This document shows, piece by piece, positions 11,086 through 12,818 of a stretch of DNA of 42,422 nucleotides (positions are counted from its first letter, which is position 1; each line of letters begins with the position of its first letter). A program made the translations under genes and the position numbers. Source of the DNA: Acidimicrobiales bacterium (GTDB taxonomy: Bacteria > Actinomycetota > Acidimicrobiia > Acidimicrobiales > CAIXPF01); assembly GCA_020846295.1 (NCBI GenBank), contig JADLEF010000138.1, positions 1 through 42,422 of the forward strand, read 5' to 3'. Below the pieces are notes generated by a model, which worked only from the letters and a program-made list of their open reading frames with translations, searched no databases and was not told the origin of the DNA.

Positions 11086-11116
11086 CGGTTCTCCCTCTCG
11101 GTGATCGCTCTCTGTC

Positions 11117-11135
11117 GCCGACCAGACTTCCCGGC
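11117..11135 (-). promoter_or_regulatory. 19-nt leader block of the winged-helix gene
   Basis: Read on the minus strand this is GCCGGGAAGTCTGGTCGGC, identical to 11296-11314 on the plus strand. Its ends GCCG and CGGC can pair around an 11-nt loop. It begins 15 nt after TACATT (11151-11156 on minus), a plausible -10, so it would be close to the 5' end of the transcript and 31 nt before the TTG start codon. Confidence 0.6.
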
Positions 11136-11150
11136 ACGCCCTACGGGCTC

Positions 11151-11156
11151 AATGTA
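11151..11156 (-). promoter_or_regulatory. Probable -10 of the winged-helix regulator gene
   Basis: TACATT on the minus strand matches TAnnnT and lies 65 nt upstream of the TTG start. No clear -35 is visible. Confidence 0.4.
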
Positions 11157-11227
11157 GCAGCGCGCCATCGTCGTGCAAGGTGGCTGTGTGGTGCTCGCGG
11201 GCAACGGTGATCAGGCGGCTCGCATCC

Positions 11228-11283
11228 GTTCATACGCCGTTCACAGCCAACCCTTCCCACCCGGGGGGCGGGGCCCGTATCGT
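11228..11283 (+). promoter_or_regulatory. amt promoter with PHO-box-like direct repeat
   Basis: GTTCA occurs at 11228 and again at 11239, an 11-nt direct repeat as in actinobacterial PHO boxes. TATCGT (11278-11283) is a TAnnnT -10, 28 nt after the repeat. This geometry nearly equals that of pstS (27 nt). GlnR sites, the expected nitrogen control for amt, also have 11-nt periodicity, but the GTnAC/GAAAC half-sites are not matched. Confidence 0.45.
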
Positions 11284-11284
11284 T

Positions 11285-11327
11285 CGCATCGGTGAGCCGG
11301 GAAGTCTGGTCGGCATCGTTCGATGCG
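11285..11327 (+). promoter_or_regulatory. Structured leader element of amt containing the shared 19-nt block
   Basis: CGCATCG (11285-11291) can pair with CGATGCG (11321-11327), enclosing GCCGGGAAGTCTGGTCGGC (11296-11314), which has its own GCCG/CGGC closing pair. It begins right after the -10 and is followed by about 110 nt of leader before the amt ATG. The identical 19-nt block occurs in the divergent leader at 11117-11135, oriented toward the other gene. It is a candidate structured RNA or regulator site. I could not match it to a known riboswitch. Confidence 0.5.
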
Positions 11328-11438
11328 CGCCCTGGAGGCTTCGTTGCTCAAATCACTCGACTCCGATCTCGTGAACCGGGGACCGCCATGCCGATCGGGA
11401 TGTGGCTGGTGTTGTCCGTTTCGAGTTGAGGAGATGAG

Positions 11439-12818
11439 ATGAAAGTTCGGTTGATGGCCTGCCTCGGTGCGGCCGGTGTCGGTTTGATGGCAGCGGCGCT
11501 GCCGGCCGGCGCGCAGGATGCGGTGAGCGCGGAGGCGGTCCAGACGAACCTGGACAACGTCTTCGTGTTGCTCAGCGCGGTGCTGGTGATCTTCATGCAG
11601 GCCGGCTTCGCACTCGTGGAGGCGGGGCTCACGCGGGCGAAGAGCGTCGCCAACATCATGATGAAGAACATGATGGACTTCTGTGCCGGCGCGATCGCGT
11701 TCTTCGCAGTCGGTTATGCGTTCGCCTTCGGTGCGGGCAATGACTTCATCGGGTGGAACGGGTGGTTCCTCGGCGATGGTGCGTTCCAGTACGGCACGCT
11801 CACCGTGCCGGTCACCTTCGTGTTCCAGGTCGCGTTCGCGGCCACGGCGGCGACGATCGTGTCGGGGGCGATGGCCGAACGCACGAAGTTCAAGAGCTAC
11901 TTCGTGTACAGCATCGGCATCTCCGCGGTGATCTACCCGATCGTCGTGCACTGGAACTGGGGCGGTGGCTGGCTGGCGCAGCTCGGCACGCCGTTCCACG
12001 ACTTCGCCGGCTCGACGATGGTGCACATGACCGGCGGTGTCGCGGCGCTGGTCGGGGCGAAGATCCTCGGCCCCCGCATCGGCAAGTACGGGCCCGACGG
12101 ACGTCCGCGTGCGATCCCGGGCCACAACATCCCCTACGCGGTGCTCGGCACGTTCATCCTGCTGGTCGGCTGGTACGGCTTCAACCCGGGTTCAGAGCTG
12201 GCCGCCGATGGTGCCATCGGCGGCATCGCGGTGACCACCACGCTCGCCGGGGCCACCGGCGCGATCACCGCGATGCTCGCGGTGTGGTTCAAGGCCGGCA
12301 AACCCGATGTGGCGATGGCGGCCAACGGCATGCTCGCCGGCCTGGTCGGCATCACCGCCGGGTGCGCTGCGGTGAGCAACGTCGGCGCCGTGATCATCGG
12401 CGGTCTCAGCGGCGTGCTGGTGTTCTTCAGTGTGCTGTTCTTCGATCGCATCGGCATCGACGACCCGGTGGGCGCCATCTCGGTGCACGGCGTGTGCGGT
12501 GCGTTCGGCACGCTCTCGGTGGGCCTGTTCGCCACCGCCGACACGGACTTCTGGAAGCAGGGCCTGTTCTACGGCGGCGGTGCCAGCCAGCTGGTGAGCC
12601 AGCTGATCGGGGTGGTGGCCGTGGCTGCGTTCGTGGCCGTCACCGCGACGGGGCTGTTCCTGGCCATCAAGGCGACCATGGGCCTCCTGGTGCCGGAGGA
12701 GGAGGAAGTCGCCGGGCTGGACATCGCCGAGCACGGCAGCGCCGGCTACGGCCCCGATGTCACCTCCGGTGGTTCGCTCGGTGCGGGGCACTCCCCGCTG
12801 GCGGCAGCCGCTCGCTGA
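11439..12818 (+). CDS. amt: Ammonium transporter Amt
   Basis: A 459-residue Amt/MEP/Rh channel for ammonium uptake in the cytoplasmic membrane. It begins with a cleavable-looking signal sequence ending PAGAQD, as in many Amt proteins, followed by eleven expected membrane helices. Family landmarks are visible: the N-terminal QAGFALVEAGLTRAKS, MAERTKFKSY, HWNWGGGWLA, the pore-region FNPGS and DDPVGAISVHGVCGAFG with the twin-histidine region. The ATG at 11439 follows GAGGAGATGAG. No GlnK (PII) gene follows, which is unusual for amt; instead a bidirectional terminator does. It is divergent from a receiver-less winged-helix regulator and has a long leader of about 150 nt with a PHO-like repeat upstream. 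Confidence 0.95.
   Translation: MKVRLMACLGAAGVGLMAAALPAGAQDAVSAEAVQTNLDNVFVLLSAVLVIFMQAGFALVEAGLTRAKSVANIMMKNMMDFCAGAIAFFAVGYAFAFGAGNDFIGWNGWFLGDGAFQYGTLTVPVTFVFQVAFAATAATIVSGAMAERTKFKSYFVYSIGISAVIYPIVVHWNWGGGWLAQLGTPFHDFAGSTMVHMTGGVAALVGAKILGPRIGKYGPDGRPRAIPGHNIPYAVLGTFILLVGWYGFNPGSELAADGAIGGIAVTTTLAGATGAITAMLAVWFKAGKPDVAMAANGMLAGLVGITAGCAAVSNVGAVIIGGLSGVLVFFSVLFFDRIGIDDPVGAISVHGVCGAFGTLSVGLFATADTDFWKQGLFYGGGASQLVSQLIGVVAVAAFVAVTATGLFLAIKATMGLLVPEEEEVAGLDIAEHGSAGYGPDVTSGGSLGAGHSPLAAAAR

Follow-up and report, generated by a model that had tools for sequence, protein, structure and literature searches.

Why should two divergently transcribed genes carry the same 19 nt immediately behind their promoters? 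In the window analyzed here (the whole stretch of 42,422 nucleotides from an Acidimicrobiales contig), the sequence GCCGGGAAGTCTGGTCGGC occurs exactly at 11296-11314 (+), toward the ammonium transporter gene amt, and at 11117-11135 (-), toward a gene for a winged-helix protein, as a preliminary description of this DNA had stated; the window holds no further site with up to 3 mismatches, and two matches were obtained in 0 of 100 dinucleotide shuffles of the window. Both -10 hexamers named in that description are likewise present, TATCGT 12 nt before the plus-strand copy and TACATT 15 nt before the minus-strand copy. It weighed a small structured RNA against a site for a protein.

Copies and extent of the element

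The draft genome to which the window belongs (5.88 Mb, 475 contigs) has four exact copies of the 19-mer, all in leaders and each directly downstream of a promoter; in the rest of this genome the sequence is found only at the 3-mismatch background, equal to the control level. The copies precede amt, the winged-helix regulator gene, a Na+/Ca2+ exchanger gene (CaCA, PF01699; locus L001) and an operon (L269) in which a Usp-like ORF, so labeled from sequence appearance alone and with no Pfam match, precedes the gene for an Mrp antiporter subunit of 802 aa (PF00361, MbhD, MbhE). A dispersed repeat, raised at the outset as a reading that would undo a regulatory role, is rejected, as only four copies exist genome-wide and every one lies in a leader.

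Among the matches listed from same-order relatives and from 84,980 species genomes (GTDB), 160 distinct copies define a 25-nt consensus, GGNGY-GCCG-GGAAGNCUGGU-CGGC-R. The two copies first described are thus real, and the 19-nt block was incomplete: it is preceded by an invariant GGNG(Y) and followed by a covarying R. Numbered from the 19-mer, position -5 is G in 158, position -4 in 159 and position -2 in 158 of the 160 copies; position -1 is T, C or A, and any base may stand at position 10 of the 19-mer (T 106, C 35, G 10, A 9). In 97 of the 160 copies a TAnnnT hexamer begins 18 or 19 nt upstream of the 19-mer (0 to 6 at other offsets). From this spacing, the first G of GGNG is probably the transcript start in Actinomycetota. 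In the window, TATCGT occupies exactly the standard place and TACATT lies a few bases farther off (Table 1). The further 7-bp stem proposed around the amt copy (CGCATCG/CGATGCG) needs DNA upstream of this likely start and is probably absent from the amt RNA.

The element is present in 28 of 59 same-order relatives and at no fewer than 119 loci in the scan of GTDB genomes. Covariance model R1 finds it in 8 of 101 Chloroflexota and in 22 of 47 genomes of one Chloroflexota class, to which we gave the label "Ktedonobacteria-type" by appearance.

Table 1. Positions of the element and neighboring features in the window
Feature	Position	Strand	Basis or remark
25-nt element before amt, GGTGA-GCCG-GGAAGTCTGGT-CGGC-A	11291-11315	+	Covariance model, 44.2 bits
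P1 of amt element	11296-11299 paired with 11311-11314	+	
25-nt element before winged-helix gene, GGCGT-GCCG-GGAAGTCTGGT-CGGC-G	11140-11116	-	Covariance model, 43.7 bits
-10 hexamer TATCGT, amt promoter	11278-11283	+	Sequence; standard position (-18 to -13 from the 19-mer) according to 160 copies
-10 hexamer TACATT, winged-helix gene promoter	11151-11156	-	Sequence
Shine-Dalgarno GGAGG of leader ORF	11334-11338	+	Sequence
Upstream ORF, 32 codons, TTG start	11344-11442	+	TGA overlaps amt ATG (ATGA 11439-11442)
amt, ammonium transporter (PF00909)	11439-12818	+	
Shine-Dalgarno GAGGGAG, winged-helix gene	11091-11097	-	Sequence
OmpR/PhoB-type winged-helix protein, 179 aa	10546-11085	-	Small N-terminal domain replaces canonical receiver

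The 179-aa protein has no match in Pfam and NCBIfam profile searches; homologs with 27 to 40% identity occur in 25 of 59 relatives. Its predicted fold is confident (AlphaFold pLDDT 87), Foldseek matches PhoP, CosR and PrrA, and the C-terminal half resembles OmpR/PhoB winged-helix domains, so that the earlier label of a receiver-less winged-helix protein is fair. The gene is a target of the element here, with no sign of a general partner role. On the other side, the upstream ORF (11334-11442, +, including its GGAGG) encodes LLKSLDSDLVNRGPPCRSGCGWCCPFRVEEMR, a Cys-rich leader peptide, to which amt is possibly translationally coupled. A CPA-type Na+/H+ exchanger gene (PF00999; 12875-14053, -) is convergent with amt, which gives the element region a neighborhood of ion-transport genes.

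Compensatory changes in a 25-nt RNA hairpin

The stem was assessed in a search of 396 Actinomycetota genomes in which the loop and GG.G were held fixed and the stem was left free. Stems other than GCC/GGC in real leaders are fully Watson-Crick paired in 18 of 18 cases, nine from Actinomycetota and nine from Chloroflexota, the Chloroflexota loci having been found with a stem-containing model. The alternative types are GTC/GAC, TCC/GGA, GCT/AGC, GGC/GCC and ACC/GGT, with G-C pairs changed to U-A or A-U and C-G pairs to U-A or G-C. The 11 background hits that lack promoter context form 0 to 2 of 3 pairs, which equals the chance expectation. In sets of 47 and 75 distinct sequences, themselves pre-filtered for pairing, 100% of cells are paired and three of four pairs are changed on both sides, a degree of covariation reached by 0 of 500 shuffles and by no slid version; these shuffle tests correct only partly for shared ancestry. 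Because the other sets are filtered for pairing or modeled with a stem, the stem-free Actinomycetota search is the unbiased test of covariation.

The pair flanking the stem (-1/+1) also covaries (U.G 91, C.A 57), with a mutual information of 0.47 against a shuffle maximum of 0.08. U.G and C.A share a similar wobble geometry, which would be sensible in RNA and not in duplex DNA. At the level of sequence, these changes show that P1, a GCCG/CGGC stem lengthened by the U.G or C.A pair and bearing the 11-nt loop GGAAGNCUGGU, exists as RNA. The search for recurrence with covariation that had been recommended for the 19-mer thus returns compensatory changes in three of four pairs and repeated occurrence before transporter and regulator genes, in line with the small, riboswitch-like structured RNA with GCCG/CGGC closing pairs that had been suggested. 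The 19-mer is the core of a 25-nt leader RNA hairpin, apparently undescribed, in ion-transporter leaders of Actinomycetota and Chloroflexota. Alone, P1 is weak (about -5 kcal/mol by nearest-neighbor energy) and it is absent from the predicted ground state; it would therefore need a stabilizer.

A loop variant, CUGG to CGGG, recurs in different families (L170, L171, L182, L220, L261) with the stem intact and mostly with a promoter; it may represent a subclass with an altered ligand.

Competing helices in Chloroflexota leaders and, probably, in those of Actinomycetota

Of 42 Chloroflexota copies, 29 lend the 5' strand of the element to a terminator stem of at least 6 bp that is followed by a U-tract, as compared with a mean of 4.4 and a maximum of 9 in shuffled Chloroflexota leaders; 13 of the 42 lack a recognized terminator. 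Examples are GGAGUGCCGGG...CCCGGCACUCC-UCUUUUC and CGCCGGG...CCCGGCG-UUUUUUU. The anti-strand tracks changes in the element at positions 5 and 6 (C5 with G, U5 with A or G, A6 with U). As these pairings show, terminator and P1 are mutually exclusive in Chloroflexota, and the proposal of a structured RNA gains from a hairpin that excludes terminators; a mutually exclusive expression platform, a general feature of riboswitches, is found in these 29 copies. The anti-strand often starts 0 to 5 nt after the element (in many copies, in Ktedonobacteria-type leaders), so that in those leaders a sensor can hardly extend past 25 nt on the 3' side. In this phylum the element can be located deep within the transcript, with a promoter-like site about 50 nt upstream. 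The terminator of L289 was missed by a generic terminator scanner because its loop exceeds the scanner limit. In L299, also from Chloroflexota, an apparent terminator is formed from the 3' half of the loop (AAGACUGGU/ACCAGUCUU) and not from the 5' strand; it again excludes the aptamer.

Actinomycetota leaders are short: the start codon follows the first G at a median distance of 60 nt. Here the 3' segment of the element, CUGGUCGGC, is complementary to the leader beyond expectation (mean duplex energy -10.35 versus -9.03 kcal/mol expected; z = -7.8); other segments of the element have no excess leader complementarity (z between 0 and 1.3). The signal arises mostly from CCGACC abutting or overlapping the Shine-Dalgarno sequence; among 92 non-redundant leaders 22.8% contain this motif, as compared with 3.4% of 204 control genes from the same loci. 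On this statistical evidence, a helix of the 3' strand beside the Shine-Dalgarno sequence would exclude P1. Forcing P1 (ViennaRNA) does not raise mean Shine-Dalgarno accessibility, which goes from 0.44 to 0.39, and in nine stem variants the complement ahead of the Shine-Dalgarno sequence does not clearly change together with the stem. The Actinomycetota switch may act on translation, a candidate platform favored by the enriched complement and supported neither by the accessibility calculation nor by the variant comparison. In the window itself, the predicted fold of the amt leader pairs loop GAAGUC with the 3' part of the GGAGG region (RNAfold; z = -1.5, not significant alone), and that of the winged-helix leader pairs CGGCGAC with the UUG start region (likewise not significant alone).

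Target genes, candidate signal and alternative readings

Sequence clustering of the first genes behind the 160 copies, among the matches listed, gives 84 NhaA, 13 CPA antiporters, 6 CaCA, 6 CBS proteins, 5 MrpA/MnhA, 4 APC-type permeases, 3 PPDK-like proteins and 3 alpha/beta hydrolases, 2 each of ArsB/NhaD, DUF2254, ABC ATPase and CDF, and single cases of TrkH, TrkA_N and others. To quantify the association with NhaA, PF06965 and covariance model R1 were both run on 89 genomes. In these, 29 of 44 strong copies have an NhaA gene downstream in their own orientation, the matched domain being in most cases no more than 160 nt away, and 27 of 60 NhaA genes carry the element; at the genome level it is present in 26 of 45 NhaA-bearing genomes versus 1 of 44 NhaA-less ones (Fisher p = 3e-9). 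The NhaA gene of the genome studied here has no element. In some genomes the copies are clustered: of the nine in Lentzea, most share a single region with NhaA, CPA and TrkH/TrkA-like genes. Chloroflexota copies lie upstream of CPA antiporters, NhaA, DUF2254 and others. Targets that are not obviously sodium-related include amt, alpha/beta hydrolase, PPDK-like, ABC and glycosyltransferase genes.

A riboswitch-type RNA of about 25 nt in ion-transporter leaders is the reading we favor, with moderate confidence; it would probably be among the smallest riboswitch-like gene switches known. Stabilizing an anti-terminating hairpin usually prevents termination and turns the gene on. By this logic a ligand would stabilize P1 and its loop, and the stabilized P1 would prevent the terminator or free the ribosome site, so that the gene is on with ligand. 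The antiporter-rich target set makes Na+ the favored signal, closely followed by alkaline or general cation stress; judged from gene content, the element may sense sodium or a closely linked ionic signal. The genome studied here would then co-regulate amt, the divergent winged-helix regulator, the CaCA exchanger and the Usp-Mrp operon, a regulon that the element predicts from sequence alone. Somewhat below even odds, in our estimate, stands the fuller proposal that this is an undescribed class with the smallest natural aptamer, a direct sensor of Na+ or another monovalent cation that turns on antiporters by antitermination in Chloroflexota and by translation control in Actinomycetota (including Streptomyces and mycobacteria). 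If the aptamer truly measures 25 nt, the minimum size of natural riboswitches would be lowered, and very little RNA would prove enough for sensing a monatomic ion. Being widespread on genes for NhaA, Mrp, CPA and CaCA proteins, the short element is a ready candidate, and a 60-nt RNA suffices to test it.

The element matches no described family where we looked. Rfam 15 has no family at the gathering score in the window and nothing relevant up to E = 10 around its two copies; no family reaches its cut-off at the element in 20 related loci, where two tRNAs are the only matches, and the Infernal/Rfam check recommended for the 19-mer is negative in that respect. A partial resemblance to cobalamin riboswitches, noted earlier, finds no counterpart in the window or these loci; with neither a cobalamin model match nor a B12 box, this and other known riboswitches are rejected. 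In the open-access literature, we found neither the exact 19-mer nor a paper on the element, and a recent survey of ncRNAs does not mention it (PMC11109978). A literature search found no described sodium-sensing RNA in Actinomycetota.

Several described switches invite comparison. The PreQ1-I riboswitch has an aptamer of about 34 nt that competes with a terminator or ribosome site; it is unrelated to the element in sequence, fold and gene context, and the element would be smaller still. Na+-I (DUF1646 motif) and Na+-II/Li+-I (nhaA-I) riboswitches are reported to activate expression in response to ions (PMC9337991, PMC9646797), and like the element they are found in leaders of genes for Na+/H+ antiporters and other cation transporters. 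The element shares the association with sodium-transport genes that marks Na+-I; it gives no match to the Rfam model of that class, and where these riboswitches have two extended helices, P1 and P2, it conserves a single 25-nt hairpin and no second helix. The DUF1646 motif is reported from Firmicutes, Proteobacteria, Acidobacteria and Verrucomicrobia, and the element occurs in Actinomycetota and Chloroflexota. The Li+-II riboswitch (nhaA-II motif) shares nhaA leaders with the element, at which no Rfam match is found. The element may thus work like a sodium riboswitch yet stand outside the known Na+/Li+ families.

The chief rival, which we regard as unlikely, is that the hairpin is read in trans by an RNA-binding antiterminator protein that itself senses the ion or stress. 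In RAT, read by LicT/BglG, a short hairpin overlaps the 5' strand of an intrinsic terminator. The Chloroflexota leaders share this architecture, a short hairpin with a conserved loop on the terminator 5' strand, and both the weakness of P1 alone and the unusually small size of a 25-nt aptamer would suit a protein partner. The conserved loop differs from that of RAT, however; no regulator gene was found linked to the element across loci, where neither a BglG-type regulator nor a sugar operon was seen; and both phyla have nearly the same loop. Where other switches on genes of this kind respond to an ion, they bind it directly (PMC9337991, PMC9646797).

That the hairpin is a ligand-free 5'-terminal stabilizer of mRNA, travelling with ion-stress promoters, would agree with an element that begins at the likely transcript start in Actinomycetota; it is improbable, as such a role needs neither the invariant 11-nt loop nor GG.G, and the Chloroflexota element can lie within the transcript and feeds a terminator.

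Highly improbable is a DNA operator at which a transcription factor would bind a short way downstream of each of the two starts, as the protein site in the preliminary description would have it. The imperfect inverted repeat, its fixed distance from the -10 hexamer and the divergent pair in the window are what one would expect of an operator, and RAE, in the leaders of actinobacterial rifamycin genes, is likewise a palindrome, of 19 bp (PMC10719064). Against this reading stand single stem pairs in which both bases have changed in compensation, together with the invariant asymmetric loop, U.G/C.A covariation, the strand-specific orientation toward the gene and terminators built from one strand; covariation and these terminators lead us to reject it. 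RAE and the element are alike as 19-bp inverted repeats in actinobacterial leaders and are set apart here by position and targets: RAE is situated some 20 bp downstream of one start, where it overlaps the -35 of a second promoter (PMC10719064), whereas the element begins with the likely first base of the transcript and its targets are mostly ion antiporters. Control of rifamycin-inactivation genes (rph, rgt, rox, helR) is rejected for the element, as its targets are mostly ion transporters and NCBIfam scores are below cut-off (PPDK-like L078, 498 bits versus 999 for Rph; GT L155, 137 versus 800 for Rgt).

A near-leaderless leader peptide (GUG-UGC-CGG-GAA-GNC-UGG-UCG, V/M-[CRS]-REVWS), suggested by GTG at positions 2 to 4 in 146 of 205 copies and a frame often open in GC-rich DNA, has a negligible chance and is rejected: in 59 of the 205 the supposed start codon reads GAG, GCG or GGG, the free base is a second codon position (GNC) with synonymous third positions invariant, and the stem covaries.

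Some target genes and upstream sequences deserve mention beside the riboswitch-type reading. DUF2254 membrane proteins are repeated targets in both phyla (L054, L154, L307, L309, L313, L316, L319), which suggests a role for DUF2254 in ion homeostasis. Elements also lie before or near PPDK-like, GT28, FAD monooxygenase-like and ABC genes (L078, L106, L118, L155, L258, L262) that look like antibiotic-inactivation enzymes, possibly reflecting a response to ionophores. Finally, a direct-repeat-like sequence, TTTRCGGCATCTTTRCG, stands at the promoter position upstream of the element in L052, L062, L108 and L139, and suggests that, ahead of antiporter and CBS genes, the RNA element is combined with a KdpE-type operator stacked on it.
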